Both the position numbers and the translations under genes were made by a program. DNA of 62,500 nucleotides from Gluconobacter sp. Dm-62 (GTDB lineage: Bacteria; Pseudomonadota; Alphaproteobacteria; Acetobacterales; Acetobacteraceae): the NCBI RefSeq assembly GCF_018256155.1, contig NZ_JAERLY010000015.1, positions 1-62,500 on the forward strand. Reading direction: 5' to 3'. This document shows positions 13,401 to 21,757 of this stretch, one piece after another. The notes below the pieces were generated by a model, which worked only from the letters and a program-made list of their open reading frames with translations, did not search any database and had not been told where the DNA came from. Position 1 is the first letter of the stretch. Each line of letters starts with the position of its first letter.

Positions 13401-14270
13401 ATGAGTGCACCTTCTCCAGCATCAGATGCCACCCGGGACGAAGCGCCGCGCAGGCATACCAGTCGGGACACTCCCCGTGGCAGTCCTGCCGCCAGGGCCT
13501 GGGCTGACTGGAAAGAAACGCGGCGTCTGTGGAGGCTGGGTGTCAGGCTGGGCTGGCTCGATATCCGTCTCCGGTATCGTGGTTCTGCTCTGGGGCCGTT
13601 CTGGCTGACCATCACTTCAGCGCTGATGGTGGCCTCAATGGGCGTGCTCTACAGTCGGCTGTTCCACATGCAGCTCGCGACCTATCTGCCCTTCCTCTCA
13701 CTGTCGCTCACCCTGTGGAGCGTCGGGCTTTCAAGCCTGATCCAGGAATCCTGCACCTGCTTCCTCGATGCGGAAGATATGGTGCGATCAGTACAGCTGC
13801 CGCTCCTGCTGTATGCGGTCCGCGTCGTGGTCCGCAATGCGATCGTGTTTGCCCATAATATCGTGGTCCCGCTCGCCGTATTCGTCATTTACCATCTGTG
13901 GCCCGGGATAAATGCCGTTCTGGCCATTCCTGCACTTCTCCTGTGGGCTCTGGACGGGTTTGCCGCCTGCATGCTGTTCGGATCGCTCTGCGCGCGGTTC
14001 AGGGACATCACGCCGATCGTCGGTGCGCTCCTGCAGATCGTGTTCTATGTGACACCGATCATCTGGATGCCGCAGCAGCTGGGGGCAAAAGCCTCCCTTC
14101 TGCTGCTCAATCCGTTCTATCCCCTGCTGGAAATCGTGCGTGCGCCCCTTCTGGGTCACCTGCCGTCCCTTCAGGTCTGGGGGATTGCGCTGACACTCAG
14201 CGTGGTGTTCTGGGCGATCGCCATACGATCATTCATCAAGACGCGGGCGCGTCTGGTATTCTGGATCTGA
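13401..14270 (+). CDS. ABC-2 type polysaccharide export permease (Wzm/KpsM-like)
   Basis: A 289-residue inner-membrane protein with about six hydrophobic segments after a polar N-terminal tail of about 45 residues. DIRLRYRGSALGPFWLTI is the conserved cytoplasmic entry of O-antigen and capsule export permeases, and FYVTPIIWMP and LLNPFYPLLEIVRAPLLG are typical C-terminal motifs. With the ATPase encoded four bases downstream it should flip or export a lipid-linked or capsular polysaccharide. No glycosyltransferases sit next to it, so the substrate is not indicated. Confidence 0.9.
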   Translation: MSAPSPASDATRDEAPRRHTSRDTPRGSPAARAWADWKETRRLWRLGVRLGWLDIRLRYRGSALGPFWLTITSALMVASMGVLYSRLFHMQLATYLPFLSLSLTLWSVGLSSLIQESCTCFLDAEDMVRSVQLPLLLYAVRVVVRNAIVFAHNIVVPLAVFVIYHLWPGINAVLAIPALLLWALDGFAACMLFGSLCARFRDITPIVGALLQIVFYVTPIIWMPQQLGAKASLLLLNPFYPLLEIVRAPLLGHLPSLQVWGIALTLSVVFWAIAIRSFIKTRARLVFWI

Positions 14271-14274
14271 CATC

Positions 14275-15072
14275 ATGGTTCACATCCACCTTGACGAGAT
14301 CTCCCTGTCTTTTCCGGTCCTGCATGGCAGTTCCCGCTCCCTGAAAAAGACCCTTCTGGCACGTGCGAAAAGTACGGTGGCTGCCCGAACCGGAGCGGTC
14401 GGCGGCAGAATGCGTATCAGCAATGATTCATCCGAGGTCGTGGAAGTTCAGGCCCTTTCCGATGTCAGTTTCAAAATTTCCGGAGGCGAGCGGGTTGGTC
14501 TTGTCGGGCACAACGGTGCCGGTAAATCGACCCTTCTCAGGCTCCTGGCCGGGATTTACGAAACGGGTGAGGGGGTTCTGGACATCGTTGGGGATACCCA
14601 CGCGCTTATTGACCCGAATGCCGGCATGAATGGCGAACTGACGGGGCGGGAAAACATCCAGCTTTTCGCCTGCAGAATGGGTATGGGGCGTACTGCAACA
14701 CAGGAGCTGGAGCGGGACGTTGAGGCGTTTTCAGATCTGGGAGCATTTTTCGATCTTCCTGTCCGGCTTTATTCCTCCGGCATGTCTGTCCGGCTGGGAT
14801 TTGCCCTCGCAACCGTGCCACGCCCCCGAATCCTGCTGATGGACGAGTGGTTCATGGCCGGGGACCAGAAATTTCAGGACAAGGCCAAGGCCCGTCTGGA
14901 AGGCATGGTCGACGCAGCAGACATTCTGGTCGTGACGTCTCACGCGCTTTCGATTCTCCGGCAGTGGTGCACGCGCATCATCTGGATGGAGAGCGGGGAA
15001 GTGCGCATGGACGGTCCGGCAGACGATGTGCTGGACGCCTATGAGGCCGCGCTGGCAGTCATTCCTGTTTAA
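14275..15072 (+). CDS. ABC polysaccharide exporter ATPase (Wzt/KpsT-like)
   Basis: A 265-residue ATPase. Walker A is GHNGAGKST near residue 78, the signature is YSSGMSVRLGF, and Walker B is RILLMDEWF. The text ALSDVSFKISGGERVGLVG is typical of the TagH/Wzt/KpsT group. It ends shortly after the nucleotide-binding domain, so it lacks the carbohydrate-binding C-terminal extension found in some Wzt proteins. It begins four bases after the permease stop and should form an ABC exporter with it. Confidence 0.92.
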   Translation: MVHIHLDEISLSFPVLHGSSRSLKKTLLARAKSTVAARTGAVGGRMRISNDSSEVVEVQALSDVSFKISGGERVGLVGHNGAGKSTLLRLLAGIYETGEGVLDIVGDTHALIDPNAGMNGELTGRENIQLFACRMGMGRTATQELERDVEAFSDLGAFFDLPVRLYSSGMSVRLGFALATVPRPRILLMDEWFMAGDQKFQDKAKARLEGMVDAADILVVTSHALSILRQWCTRIIWMESGEVRMDGPADDVLDAYEAALAVIPV

Positions 15073-15410: not shown

Positions 15411-15803
15411 TCAGCCGCTATAGGACGCGAGCTCGATCAGATTGCCATCGGGATCGCGGCAGTAGACGGACGTGATCGGACCCAGCGCGCCCAGACGCGC
15501 CACAGGCCCCTCGACGATCTCCACGCCACATTTTTCCAGATGCCGGATGATATGTTCGCTGGCGATGGCTGTCGTAAAGCACAGATCAGATGTGCCCGGC
15601 GCCGCATCCCCCGCTGTATCCCAGCCCTCGGAGCCTTCAGGGCGCAGGTTGATTTTCTGGCCGCCAAAGCTCAGGGCAACACGGTTGTTGCGACCGTATT
15701 CCTCGATATCCATCCCCAGAACACGCTGATACCACGATGCAGACACGGTCCGGTCCCGGACAGTCAGCACGATATGGTCAAGGCGATCGACGGTGAAACG
15801 CAT
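15411..15803 (-). CDS. VOC family (glyoxalase/dioxygenase fold) protein
   Basis: A 130-residue protein of the vicinal oxygen chelate superfamily. RLDHIVLTVRD opens the first beta-alpha-beta-beta-beta module with the metal-ligand His, and DPDGNLIELASY closes the second with the ligand Glu. The pattern is like glyoxalase or bleomycin-resistance proteins. The specific reaction is not clear from sequence. Confidence 0.87.
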   Translation of the reverse strand: MRFTVDRLDHIVLTVRDRTVSASWYQRVLGMDIEEYGRNNRVALSFGGQKINLRPEGSEGWDTAGDAAPGTSDLCFTTAIASEHIIRHLEKCGVEIVEGPVARLGALGPITSVYCRDPDGNLIELASYSG

Positions 15804-15896: not shown

Positions 15897-16472
15897 TCAG
15901 GTCGGAGGACGCTTGCGGAAGGCCGCCAGGCTAACAACTTCCGCATCTTTCTTCACATCGTCGTCGGATGCCGTGTCGGGCTGGACGTCCGGATGATGGG
16001 CCGGATCGATATCGTCAGGCTCCACGGCCCCGTCGGGGATCTCAATGTCTTCATCATCTTCAAGCGGTGAATGATTGAAGCGCAGCGCCATGCGGATATG
16101 CGGGTCGGCGAATGCCGTGATGGCGTTCACCGGGATGCACAGGATGCTGCCGACGCCACCGAAGGACAGGCCCACGGAAATCACACCCTTGTCGCGGTCC
16201 AGTGCCAGATCCCAGAACTGGTGCTGCAGCACGATGGTCATTTCTTCTGGATACTGCGCGCGCAGACGGGCCGGGATGATGACGTCCGGGCGGTTCGTGC
16301 GGAATGTCAGATAGAAATGGTGGGCGCCCGGCAGGCCTTCCGCCGCGACATGCTCGATCGCACGCAGCATGACTTCGCGATAGGCGTCTTCCACCCAGTC
16401 GTCATAGGGAAGAAGGCTCTCGGGAAGGTCGTGCTCGAAGCCGTCCTGGCCGTTGTGATCGTCGTCGCTCAT
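15897..16472 (-). CDS. sspB: ClpXP adaptor SspB (alphaproteobacterial type)
   Basis: A 191-residue protein. Residues 15-120 form the SspB fold (YREVMLRAIEHVAAEG, HHFYLTFRTN, PEEMTIVLQHQFWDL, GVGSILCIPVNAI). An acidic disordered tail follows and ends VVSLAAFRKR, which resembles the ClpX-docking XB motif. SspB tethers tmRNA-tagged proteins to the ClpXP protease. I chose the ATG at 16472 over an upstream one at 16565 because homologous sequence begins there. The gene lies about 100 bases downstream of the tmRNA gene on the same strand. Confidence 0.9.
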   Translation of the reverse strand: MSDDDHNGQDGFEHDLPESLLPYDDWVEDAYREVMLRAIEHVAAEGLPGAHHFYLTFRTNRPDVIIPARLRAQYPEEMTIVLQHQFWDLALDRDKGVISVGLSFGGVGSILCIPVNAITAFADPHIRMALRFNHSPLEDDEDIEIPDGAVEPDDIDPAHHPDVQPDTASDDDVKKDAEVVSLAAFRKRPPT

Positions 16473-16573
16473 GGTCGCAAGCCTGATGTTTCGGTCAACT
16501 TGCATCAGGGATGCGACAGACCGGCGCGGATGGCAAGCCGTCTTTGTTGTGAATGTCGGGGACATGATGAGGT

Positions 16574-16860
16574 GGGAGGGCTTCTGTTGCCCGGTGCCCT
16601 CCCGAACCGCGCTTATCGCTTATGCAGCGACAGCGAGCACCTCTGAGTTATCGTTGGCACTTGTAAGTTTAGCCCGATGACGGTGGTACAATACCGGGCA
16701 AAAGATAAGTCTTTACCGTGCGCGTCGAGCCTGTTTCGTCCCCACAGACCCCTTTTGCGAGGGGTTTTTCTATGGTGGAGACGCCGGGCACTGCCCCCGG
16801 GTCCACAACACTTATTCCACTTACCGTTTATCGCCATAGCCGGGGACGAACCCCTTGCAT
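16574..16860 (-). ncRNA. ssrA: tmRNA, circularly permuted two-piece form
   Basis: On the minus strand the acceptor piece comes first and ends CGTCTCC-ACCA at 16773. A 29-base spacer with a CCCC/GGGG hairpin follows, then the coding piece starts GGGGACG at 16743. GGGGACG and CGTCTCC pair over seven bases with a G-U third pair, the alanine identity element. ATAAGT (16810-16815) can pair with ACTTAT (16705-16710). The tag frame at 16658-16620 reads ANDNSEVLAVAA then TAA. A GGGAGGGC hairpin (16574-16603) ends the coding piece. This permuted order is the known alphaproteobacterial form. The outer end near 16860 is an estimate. Confidence 0.92.
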
Positions 16861-16935
16861 TAATGAACATAGGAGTGCTGCTGGTCGCTCGCAAGGGAAA
16901 AGGCGGTCACGAAAAAAATTAAGCGCCCGGAATCG

Positions 16936-16992: not shown

Positions 16993-17904
16993 ATGGCACT
17001 GACATCCGAACAGCGCGCCGAGATCGAAGCTCAGCGCAGCGAACCCCAGCTCACGTCCCGTCCGACCGTGGCGGCGATGGAAAACCTGCTTTTCACACCT
17101 TTCGAGGTGCTGGATCATGGCTTCCTGCGCGTCGTCGACTATATGGGCGACGACGGCGCCGTCGTGCAGGCAGCACGGGTGTCTTATGGCCGCGGCACGA
17201 AGAAGGTGTCCGAAGATGCCGGGCTGATCCGCTATCTGATGCGCCATCGTCATTCGACGCCGTTCGAAATGTGCGAAATCAAGTTCCATGTGAAGCTGCC
17301 CGTCTTTGTGGCGCGTCAGTGGATCCGCCATCGCATGGCGAGCGTGAATGAGTATTCGGCGCGCTATTCCATTCTGGACCGCGAATTCTATCTGCCCGCG
17401 ATGGATCAGGTTGCCGCGCAGAGTAGTTCAAACCGTCAGGGACGCAGCGACGCCCTGGATGCTGATACCGCGCATGAGGTTCTGGAGATCCTGCGTCGGG
17501 ATGCCAGCCAGTGCTACGACGATTATGAGAGCCTGCTGAACCCGGAAGGCACGGGGCTGGCACGTGAACTCGCACGCATCAACCTGACACTGAATACCTA
17601 TACGCAGTGGTACTGGAAGATCGACCTGCACAATCTGATGCACTTCCTCGCCCTTCGGGCCGATCCGCATGCGCAGTATGAAATCCGCGTCTATGCGGAA
17701 AAGATGATCGAGATCCTCAAGGCCTGGGTCCCTGCGACCGCCGCCGCTTTCGAGGAATATCGTCTTGGCGCGTTCACGCTTTCGGCCGGAATGCTGAAAG
17801 TGGTGCGTCGGCGTCTGGCCGGCGAGACGGTAACGCAGGAAAACTCGGGACTGACCAAGCGCGAGTGGTCGGAAATGGTGGCGGTTCTGGATGGTGCATC
17901 CTGA
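16993..17904 (+). CDS. thyX: FAD-dependent thymidylate synthase
   Basis: A 303-residue flavoenzyme that methylates dUMP to dTMP using methylenetetrahydrofolate and NADPH. The ThyX signature [15 protein letters not shown] is present in mid-protein, preceded by [27 protein letters not shown], split across two strands of the fold, and followed by NLMHFLALR. Length is normal for the longer alphaproteobacterial members. The ATG at 16993 is the only plausible in-frame start; the GGAGG at 16971 is rather far upstream. ThyX replaces the classical ThyA enzyme. Confidence 0.95.
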
Positions 17905-18539: not shown

Positions 18540-18614
18540 TGGTGCCGGGTGAGGGATTTGAACCCCCGACCTTCGGTTTACAAAACCGCTGCACTACCAC
18601 TGTGCTAACCCGGC
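18540..18614 (-). tRNA. tRNA-Thr (anticodon TGT)
   Basis: On the minus strand GCCGGGT opens a full cloverleaf: D stem GCAC/GTGC, anticodon loop TTTGTAA with TGT, T arm GGGGG-TTCAAAT-CCCTC, and acceptor ACCCGGC followed by an encoded CCA. It reads ACA threonine codons. Confidence 0.95.
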
Positions 18615-18693: not shown

Positions 18694-18849
18694 TTAGTGC
18701 GGGATGGGTGTGATCAGGTCTGCCGGTGGCGGGAGGTGCTGCGAGTCTTTGGTGAAGCCGTAGCCGTCTGGCGAAAGGCCCCGATGCGTGACCGTCTGGG
18801 AGCATCCTGCCAATGTCAGGCAGGCACCAATCAAGAGAATACGGATCAT
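18694..18849 (-). CDS. Small lipoprotein coupled to mrp
   Basis: A 51-residue frame starts with an ATG that overlaps the mrp stop codon (ATGA). MIRILLIGACLTLAGC is a compact lipoprotein signal with lipobox LAGC, so the mature peptide is about 36 residues, begins CSQTVTHRGLSPDGYG and is proline-rich at its end. It should be lipid-anchored in the envelope. Size, lipobox and overlap make it a likely real gene. No function is known, and the link to mrp may be only translational economy. Confidence 0.75.
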   Translation of the reverse strand: MIRILLIGACLTLAGCSQTVTHRGLSPDGYGFTKDSQHLPPPADLITPIPH

Positions 18850-20045
18850 GACCGCTCTTTCGTGTTGTGTTGGGAGGACAGCGCGCGGGTAACGGCCTGC
18901 GCAAGCCTCGTATAGGCCTGGGCCGCTTCGCTCTCAGGTGCGGAGAGGATGATCGGGGTGCCTTCATCGCCGCTGGCGCGGATATCGGCCAGAAGCGGGA
19001 TCTCAGCCAGAAACGGAACTCCCATCTTTTCGGCTTCGGCCTTGGCGCCCCCGTGCCCGAACAGTTCCGTGCGATGGTTGCAGTTCGGGCAGCAGAAATA
19101 GGACATGTTCTCGACGACGCCGAGGATCGGGGTTTCCATCCGCTCGAACATCGCCACGCCACGCCGCGCATCCAGCAGCGCGATATCCTGAGGCGTGGAG
19201 ACAATAACCGCCCCACCGGCAGCCAGCTTCGGGCCGAGCTTCTGGGCCAGCGTCAACTGGGCGTCTCCAGTGCCGGGCGGCATGTCGATCACAAGAACGT
19301 CGAGCTTCCCCCATTCGACTTCACCCAGAAACTGCGTCAGCGCGCCCATGACCATCGGCCCACGCCAGATCATGGCCTGGTTTTCATCCACCAGATAGCC
19401 GATGGACATGCTCTTCAGGCCCCAGGCTTCGATGGGAAGGATCGTGCCATCCACGACTTCAGGGCGGGTGTTGCGTCCCAGCATCCGGGGCAGGGAAGGG
19501 CCGTAGATATCCGCGTCCAGAAGTCCGGTTTTCAGGCCTTCCCGCGCAAGGCCGACCGCAAGATTGACAGCCGTGGTGGACTTGCCAACACCGCCCTTGC
19601 CTGATGCAACGGCAATGACGGCTTTGACGCCGGGCAGCAGTGTCTCGGGCGCGTGTCGGCTCGCGGCATTGCGGCGCTTGTCCCCCAGATTGAAAGGGCG
19701 GTGTCCGCCCCCCTGAGCAGGGGCGTTGGCCGCGGCGAGCGTGGCCGGCCGGTGAGACGTGAAGGACAGAGTGGCGCCCGTGATGCCCGGCAGGCTCGCA
19801 ATGGCCGCCTCGACGCGCGGCCGCAGGGGTTCCACGCGGGAAGCGTTGTCACGTGACGTCGCCAGAGAGACATGCGCGTGGCCATTGCGAACAGACACAC
19901 TCTCCAGCGCGGCAAAGGACAGAACGTTCGAACCCTGACCGTCCTGCTCGCTTTTCAGAATGTCGGTGATGCGGGTTTCGGCATTGGGAGCATTCGTCTC
20001 GGGGGAGCCGGGCGGCATGTCGTTCGGGGGCGTGGTGTCAGTCAT
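18846..20045 (-). CDS. mrp: Mrp/NBP35-type Fe-S cluster carrier ATPase
   Basis: A 399-residue cytoplasmic P-loop protein (ApbC/Mrp family). The N-terminal 110 residues resemble the MIP18/DUF59 domain, and an Ala/Gly-rich linker follows. VIAVASGKGGVGKSTTAVN is the deviant Walker A with the signature lysine. VIDMPPGTGDAQLT and YFCCPNCNH supply the switch region and the CxxC pair that bridges a 4Fe-4S cluster. It carries Fe-S clusters to target apoproteins. The small lipoprotein gene overlaps its stop; htrA diverges from it across 125 bases. Confidence 0.94.
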   Translation of the reverse strand: MTDTTPPNDMPPGSPETNAPNAETRITDILKSEQDGQGSNVLSFAALESVSVRNGHAHVSLATSRDNASRVEPLRPRVEAAIASLPGITGATLSFTSHRPATLAAANAPAQGGGHRPFNLGDKRRNAASRHAPETLLPGVKAVIAVASGKGGVGKSTTAVNLAVGLAREGLKTGLLDADIYGPSLPRMLGRNTRPEVVDGTILPIEAWGLKSMSIGYLVDENQAMIWRGPMVMGALTQFLGEVEWGKLDVLVIDMPPGTGDAQLTLAQKLGPKLAAGGAVIVSTPQDIALLDARRGVAMFERMETPILGVVENMSYFCCPNCNHRTELFGHGGAKAEAEKMGVPFLAEIPLLADIRASGDEGTPIILSAPESEAAQAYTRLAQAVTRALSSQHNTKERS

Positions 20046-20170: not shown

Positions 20171-21757
20171 ATGAAAAACCTGTCTGCCCGTTCCGGCGCC
20201 CGTCGTGCTGCCCGTCTTGCTGTTTCCGGTCTGGCCATGTCCCTTGCTACGGGATGGGGCGTCAGTGCTGCTCCGGCTTTTGCCCAGAGTGCTTCGCCGG
20301 TCTCAAACCAGCCGTCTTCGGTGCCGACACCCGCACCGCGTTCCGTGCCGTCGAGCTTCGCGGATCTGGCCAACAGGCTGCTGCCGTCTGTCGTGAACGT
20401 CTCGACATCAGCGGTTCTCAAGCCTTCGAAAAACGACGACAAGGGCCCGGATTTCAGCGATCCGGACGGCCCGCAGGTGCCTCCGTTCCAGCCGGGTTCG
20501 CCGCTGGAAAAGTTCTTTCATGACTACATGAAGCACAAGCCCGCCCCGAACCATCCGCCGCGTCGTCAGCAGGCGCTGGGGTCGGGATTCATCATCGATG
20601 CGTCCGGCATCATCGTGACGAACAATCACGTGATTGAAGGGGCGGATCAGGTCAGCGTCACGCTACAGGACGGGACCGAAATGCCGGCCCGGATCGTAGG
20701 CCGGGACAGTCAGGTCGATCTGGCCGTGCTTGAGGTCAAGCCGAAGCATCCGCTCCCGACCGTTCCGCTTGGACATAGCGACAAGGCCCGGATCGGCGAC
20801 TGGGTTCTGGCGATCGGCAACCCCTTCGGCCTGAACGGCACCGTGACGGCCGGTATCATTTCCTCGCGCGGACGAAACGTCGAACATGGCCTGTATGATG
20901 ATTACATTCAGACCGACGCCGCCATCAATCGTGGCAACTCAGGTGGTCCGCTGTTCAACCTGTCTGGCGAAGTCATTGGCATTAACACACTGATTTATGG
21001 CGGTGCGGGCGGCGATTCCATCGGCATCGGCTTCGCCATTCCGGCCGATGACGCACGTGGGATCATCGACCAGCTTCGGCGCACGGGGCATGTCTCCCGT
21101 GGCTGGATGGGGCTGAAATTCCAGGATGTGACGAACGACATCGCCGAGACGCTCGATTTCCACAAAGCCGACGGCTCCAACGGCAAGGGCACGCTGATTT
21201 CGGAAATTGATCCGAAAGGTCCGGCCGCGAAAGCCGGGCTTGAGGTCGGCGACATCATTACCCGCGTCGGCGATCAGGACGTGACCGGCCAGACCATGCC
21301 GCGCATCATCGCCTCCATTCTGCCGGGAACGCAGGCGCAGTTAACGGTGTGGCACAAGGGTGCGCTCAAGACGCTGCCGATCACGCTCGGCCAGTCGCCC
21401 ACGCCGCCGGATATGCCACCTTCGGATACGCACCAGCCGGAACACCGTCATGCGGCTCTGGGGGAAATCGGTGTGACGGTCAGTGCGATCGATGCGGACG
21501 CCCGGACACAATACGCCCTGACCGACGACCAGCGCGGTGTGCTCGTCTCTCGTGTTGAGGCCGGAAGCCCCGCCGCATCGCGCGGTATTGCGGAAGGCAA
21601 CGTGATCACGCAGGTCGGGCAGGACCAGATCAACACACCGGATGATTTTGCCAAGGCCGTGCAGCGTCTGCATGAAAGCAAGAAGACGGAAGTGCTGCTG
21701 CTGGTTCAGGATGATGACGGGCTGCGCTGGGTGCCGGTGCCCTTCCTTGGGAACTGA
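20171..21757 (+). CDS. degP: Periplasmic serine protease Do (DegP/HtrA)
   Basis: A 528-residue periplasmic protease and chaperone. The signal peptide ends APAFAQ. The trypsin-like domain has NNHVIEG (His), VDLAVLEVK (Asp) and GNSGGPLFN (Ser), and two PDZ domains follow (MGLKFQDV to GALKTLPI; then GVTVSAIDADART to the end). A Pro-rich stretch links the PDZ domains. HtrA proteins degrade or refold misfolded envelope proteins. The 125-base divergent gap with mrp should hold its promoter, but I could not pick a clear envelope-stress consensus. Confidence 0.95.
   Translation: MKNLSARSGARRAARLAVSGLAMSLATGWGVSAAPAFAQSASPVSNQPSSVPTPAPRSVPSSFADLANRLLPSVVNVSTSAVLKPSKNDDKGPDFSDPDGPQVPPFQPGSPLEKFFHDYMKHKPAPNHPPRRQQALGSGFIIDASGIIVTNNHVIEGADQVSVTLQDGTEMPARIVGRDSQVDLAVLEVKPKHPLPTVPLGHSDKARIGDWVLAIGNPFGLNGTVTAGIISSRGRNVEHGLYDDYIQTDAAINRGNSGGPLFNLSGEVIGINTLIYGGAGGDSIGIGFAIPADDARGIIDQLRRTGHVSRGWMGLKFQDVTNDIAETLDFHKADGSNGKGTLISEIDPKGPAAKAGLEVGDIITRVGDQDVTGQTMPRIIASILPGTQAQLTVWHKGALKTLPITLGQSPTPPDMPPSDTHQPEHRHAALGEIGVTVSAIDADARTQYALTDDQRGVLVSRVEAGSPAASRGIAEGNVITQVGQDQINTPDDFAKAVQRLHESKKTEVLLLVQDDDGLRWVPVPFLGN

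Follow-up and report, generated by a model that had tools for sequence, protein, structure and literature searches.

The minus strand of the window, by which we mean the whole stretch of 62,500 nucleotides analysed here, almost certainly carries a permuted tmRNA gene, of the two-piece type that belongs to alphaproteobacteria. It is followed on the same strand, 100 nt beyond the end of the tmRNA model, by sspB, the gene of the ClpXP adaptor for ssrA-tagged proteins (Table 1). This adjacency between tmRNA and sspB is present in most of the alphaproteobacterial genomes that we sampled. Our preferred reading is that the two genes of the window are read as one shared transcript, to which we give a probability of about 0.6.

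Table 1. Features of the window, in order of position.
Feature	Position	Strand	Basis or remark
ORF without Pfam match	13401-14270		ahead of the ABC transporter ATPase gene
ABC transporter ATPase	14275-15072
Glyoxalase-type protein	15411-15803
sspB, 191 aa, ClpXP adaptor for ssrA-tagged proteins	15897..16472	-	PF04386; solved structures; likely start
Hairpin CCTGATG...CATCAGG	16482..16509	-	9 nt ahead of the sspB start codon; shorter stem in some relatives
tmRNA coding piece, begins GGGGACG at 16743	16573..16743	-	3' end is the model end, not a mapped end
Terminal hairpin GGGAGGGCACCGGGCAACAGAAGCCCTCCC	16603-16574	-	closes the coding piece
Tag frame ANDNSEVLAVAA plus TAA	16620..16658	-	ARAGORN, translation
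Intervening segment, 29 nt	16744..16772	-	removal expected
Hairpin CCCCTCGCAAAAGGGG	16764-16749	-	inside the intervening segment; fold -9.2 kcal/mol
Acceptor 3' strand CGTCTCC, then encoded ACCA at 16776-16773	16783-16773	-
T-arm CCGGGGGCAGTGCCCGG	16800-16784	-	within the acceptor piece
tmRNA acceptor piece, begins GGCTATGGCGATAAACGG	16773..16841	-	5' end approximate; sequence, RF01849, fold
Leader hairpin AAGGGGTTCGTCCCC	16842..16856	-	before the acceptor piece; position and fold
Candidate promoter: CTTGCG (-35) 16895-16890, 18-nt spacer, TATGTT (-10) 16871-16866	16866..16895	-	inferred
thyX, divergent upstream neighbour	16993..17904	+	PF02511, 197.4 bits; context only
tRNA-Thr	18540-18614
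Mrp/NUBPL-type P-loop protein	18846-20045
Trypsin-PDZ protease	20171-21757

A permuted tmRNA gene on the minus strand

The earlier note had read this locus as a permuted two-piece tmRNA gene from the letters alone, and the covariance model of the alphaproteobacterial family bears it out. The Rfam model RF01849 (alpha_tmRNA) matches over its whole length (model positions 1-355 of 355; window 16573-16898, minus strand) with 238.7 bits and an E value of 4.9e-68, the gathering score of this model being 50. A further Rfam model, RF04321 (tmRNA_permuted), matches the same locus with 144.6 bits, and these were also the two matches returned when the short stretch was searched alone at a permissive threshold. 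The locus was detected at once by standard tools, and the tmRNA of the window is a routine, correctly identified gene of known kind.

The details that had been noticed in the minus strand hold as well. The acceptor end (CGTCTCC-ACCA, 16783-16773) stands before the coding piece, which opens with GGGGACG at 16743-16737, and the sequence contains the seven-pair acceptor stem with its G-U third pair, G3-U70; the stem also formed when the acceptor piece was cofolded with the 75 nt that open the coding piece. The G3-U70 pair marks alanine identity. The frame at 16658-16620, TAA included, reads ANDNSEVLAVAA-stop, and ARAGORN independently reported a permuted tmRNA with this same tag. Its first codon is for alanine, its tail is hydrophobic and of the AA type, and the tag is identical in all seven named Gluconobacter loci (L041-L047).

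When compared with the two-piece alphaproteobacterial tmRNA described by RF01849, the gene of the window has the same order of pieces, the G-U acceptor stem, the encoded CCA and the T-arm, and a tag that likewise starts with ANDN and ends with AA. It differs in sequence detail only, namely in a short region past the tag stop, where the model has gaps, and in the hairpin of the segment to be removed. The stem of this hairpin is kept in all seven rows of the genus alignment, with one loop change, in L020. On the plus strand, the site of the same hairpin (16750-16764) scores as terminator-like.

A standard one-piece tmRNA was considered and ruled out, since the RF00023 (standard tmRNA) matches in the genome to which the window belongs, 15 in number and 59-151 bases long, are short and all below the cut-off of 47, the best of them reaching 43.4 bits. 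A second or decayed copy elsewhere was ruled out too, RF01849 having a single match in this genome (3.46 Mb, 52 contigs) at E <= 0.001. The idea that the locus itself is a decayed or inactive tmRNA-like sequence has, in our estimate, a negligible chance of being right. Against it stand the match to the full model, the intact acceptor stem, the encoded CCA and the open tag, and also the presence in the genome of a single copy together with an SmpB gene, which lies on another contig (PF01668, 160.2 bits, one match). It is also opposed by the genus alignment (seven rows, that of the window included), in which the flanks vary and the RNA scarcely does.

Permuted ssrA genes occur in alphaproteobacteria, as the earlier note states. 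In the class sample RF01849 has a match in 140 of 144 genomes and exceeds its cut-off in 138; among related genomes the model matches in 58 of 60, the own genome being counted in both sets. In one genome, G121, a second and weaker match over the threshold (G121:C5:288509-288849, 72.8 bits) accompanies the main one, and may stand for another permuted tmRNA gene or for one in decay. Available excerpts of the literature place these genes in a wider frame: a 2025 census counts 11,946 unique permuted tmRNA sequences (PMC11915505), two-piece tmRNA works in Caulobacter (Keiler, Shapiro and Williams 2000, via PMC3985003) and the tag of the split tmRNA of Sinorhizobium meliloti has been detected by mass spectrometry (PMC10117765).

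A candidate promoter at the start of the tmRNA model

An aligned set of 133 alphaproteobacterial loci suggests that positions 1-33 of the RF01849 model may represent a promoter rather than RNA. Model positions 3-5 of these loci read CTT (C 0.74, T 1.00, T 0.87), and positions 27-32 hold a box that resembles TATATT. A promoter-like pattern occurs in 79 of the 133 loci, compared with 2.86 per shuffled set and with none of 132 windows taken farther upstream. The pattern is absent from the remaining 54 tmRNA loci, and promoter scans miss many known starts. A scan with the sigma-70 consensus found no promoter-like site between 16400 and 17100 on either strand; it also missed the candidate promoter of the tmRNA, so that it says little about a promoter of sspB.

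sspB directly downstream

The product of the gene behind the tmRNA belongs to the SspB family (PF04386, 141.7 bits against a cut-off of 27, scored on a longer frame beginning at 16565). The solved structures closest to it are 2nys, 2qas and 2qaz, of which 2qaz bears the title 'SspB Protein'. They are those of the alphaproteobacterial SspB, with which it shares the domain and from which it shows no notable difference at the family level. According to excerpts of two articles (PMC3985003, PMC8138137), SspB binds the ssrA tag and increases the delivery of tagged proteins to ClpXP; as a member of the family, the protein of the window would bind the tag and ClpX.

Where does sspB begin? The longest open reading frame starts at 16565, a start that we rejected on finding that a 1-nt gap breaks the frame in L020, L023, L026 and L028. 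The extension at 16473-16565 is intact in L024 and L029, that is, in two of six genus relatives. Because the upstream frame is broken in the other four, 16472 is taken as the likely start, and automatic annotation may place the start of sspB wrongly at 16565, just past the end of the tmRNA. The resulting leader of 100 nt is partly conserved within the genus; its conserved blocks could hold a promoter, and the leader, with its hairpin at 16509-16482, may contain other signals of sspB's own.

Linkage of ssrA and sspB in Alphaproteobacteria

The class sample comprised 144 alphaproteobacterial genomes with a completeness of at least 90%, the own genome included, and both genes were found in 134 of them. 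In 92 of these 134 genomes, which represent 79 families, the tmRNA is followed at no more than 600 nt by the start of an SspB domain on its own strand; in 15 others the domain starts between 600 and 6000 nt downstream, again on the same strand. In the remaining 27, sspB is located elsewhere on the contig of the tmRNA (8 genomes) or on another contig (19 genomes), so linkage is not required. Every pair closer than 6 kb (107/107) has the tmRNA first and sspB second on one strand, and random positions in genomes of 3 Mb would yield about 0.01 linked cases as against the 92 observed.

Two further sets of genomes were compared as well. Among 38 additional relatives with both genes, mostly from the genus of the window, the distance was at most 600 nt in 33 and at most 6 kb in the other five. 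The phylum sample contributed 14 further alphaproteobacteria, in which the distance, counted from where the shorter RF04321 match ends, was below 300 nt in eight, 3.0-4.2 kb in four and 8.1 kb in one, while in one the genes lay apart. Outside the class, a standard tmRNA above its cut-off and an SspB match were both present in 64 other proteobacterial genomes, and in none of them did the pair lie within 10 kb. This control is limited: only 13 of the 64 carry both genes on one contig, many of the SspB matches stay below 50 bits and two fall short of the cut-off, and the underlying phylum sample draws 23 of its 74 non-alphaproteobacterial genomes from a single family.

Eight of the 144 genomes of the class sample gave no SspB match. 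Four of these (G065, G079, G123 and G155) have a strong tmRNA match. In G087 and G108 the match is weak and does not reach the cut-off, and in G083 and G113 there is no match. In another two genomes, which belong to one family and have an unlinked sspB, the tmRNA terminal hairpin with GCAACAGAA apparently has another copy of this motif immediately behind it (L147 of G047 and L151 of G165).

One transcript for tmRNA and sspB?

A model of how the locus may work is as follows. Transcription would begin at the promoter-like element 16895-16866 and yield, from the circularly permuted ssrA gene, a precursor with the acceptor half first. RNase P and a tRNA 3'-end enzyme would then cut out the middle segment of 29 nt; this excision of 16744-16772, which the earlier note had proposed to test, is what the family leads one to expect, and a review, in the excerpt available, names RNase P and tRNase Z as the probable enzymes for permuted precursors (PMC3985003). 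The product would be a two-piece tmRNA held together by the seven-pair acceptor stem and a long helix, which together with SmpB should rescue stalled ribosomes and add the tag ANDNSEVLAVAA. Finally, transcription would probably run on into sspB, and the tag RNA and the adaptor message would be cut apart afterwards.

The proposed ssrA-sspB operon of the window combines a shared strand, a short gap and a gap in which a terminator was not found. No terminator-like site was detected on the minus strand between 16400 and 17100, nor, by our own rule, behind the tmRNA of the window; with none detected there, transcription probably continues into sspB. We extend this proposal to the class with lesser confidence, considering it an even bet that the permuted tmRNA and SspB make up a single transcription unit in most of its members, in which the writer and the reader of the tag would be made together, and that permutation makes such an arrangement easier. 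It could do so since the CCA end lies inside the precursor and the coding piece could have its 3' end released from a downstream mRNA with no need for end maturation of the tRNA type.

A different explanation is that the tmRNA is real and sspB a mere neighbour, with a promoter of its own in the 100-nt gap, the gene order then reflecting functional clustering and low rearrangement. We regard this as possible though not probable. The conserved blocks immediately ahead of the sspB start within the genus would suit an independent promoter, and thyX, which is divergent, also often adjoins the tmRNA without sharing its transcript. The spacing in the class speaks against it. The distance from the end of the tmRNA model to the sspB start, the latter picked by a rule that found a ribosome-binding word of at least four letters in 42 of 92 genomes, has a median of 79 nt and is at most 60 nt in 39 of the 92 linked genomes. 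In G117 and G153 it is 12 nt, with a ribosome-binding word present. Spacings as short as these leave little room for a promoter outside the RNA gene. Two of the chosen starts are doubtful, those of G081 (31 nt inside the RNA) and G109 (9 nt). In addition, only two of the 77 tmRNA-sspB gaps of at least 32 nt contain the promoter-like pattern.

The distribution of terminators bears on the matter from both sides. A terminator-like site follows the tmRNA in 29 of the 92 linked genomes, where sspB would need either read-through or another promoter, as a mere neighbour with a promoter of its own would have. Such sites are rarer in linked genomes than in unlinked ones (15/25; Fisher p 0.011 for linked versus unlinked), which counts against a mere neighbour; the genomes of intermediate distance have 7 of 15. 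This contrast is only moderate, and we do not rest the case for a shared transcript on it. In one variant of the shared transcript, most transcripts would end at the terminal hairpin of the tmRNA and a minority would read through to become sspB mRNA, and this would fix how much tag RNA there is for each adaptor. Some linked genomes do have a T-run right after the terminal hairpin, with sspB starting about 30 nt on (28 nt in G053, locus L006), which is how a leaky terminator between the RNA and the mRNA would look. By our own rule, 63 of the 92 linked genomes, the window included, are without a terminator-like site, and we consider this leaky-terminator arrangement improbable.

The neighbourhood of the locus

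Upstream of the tmRNA gene, thyX is read away from it. Over the best segment, the ThyX of the window shares 99% identity with those of Gluconobacter potus and G. aidae, in a comparison that may not have listed its own record, and the host is close to Gluconobacter potus. A survey of 80 named ThyX loci found tmRNA and SspB together in 57, tmRNA only in 12, SspB only in one and neither in 10; these counts are lower bounds, as the flanks reached no farther than 3 kb and SspB was sought with the protein of the window. The tmRNA gene was divergent from thyX at each of the 69 loci that had it in the flank. A published table has thyX and tmRNA adjacent in Pelagibacter too, where another gene takes the place on the far side (PMC2704228, excerpt).

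The proximity of a tmRNA gene to a protein gene of its pathway has a precedent in ssrA lying beside smpB, the neighbourhood described in the excerpt of PMC4131195. The window is alike in that the tmRNA gene adjoins a gene of the same pathway; it differs in that the partner is a degradation adaptor and that smpB lies on another contig.

Has the linkage of ssrA and sspB been noticed before? Lessner, Venters and Keiler published a paper on alphaproteobacterial SspB in 2007. Within the open-licence literature, a scope outside which this key paper falls, a statement of the linkage was not found among the matches listed, and the excerpts of eight articles do not state that sspB follows ssrA (PMC11915505, PMC3985003, PMC2704228, PMC8138137, PMC9491525, PMC10117765, PMC8119881 and PMC4131195). 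The linkage may be new, or it may already have been described.

Significance

By itself, the tmRNA gene of the window is one more in a family of thousands of sequences. The linked sspB carries more weight, since it offers a testable idea of how the level of the adaptor could be kept in step with that of the tag RNA. The succession of thyX, ssrA and sspB also provides a positional marker by which permuted tmRNA genes can be located, and this marker would help to date the union of the permuted gene and the adaptor within the class.
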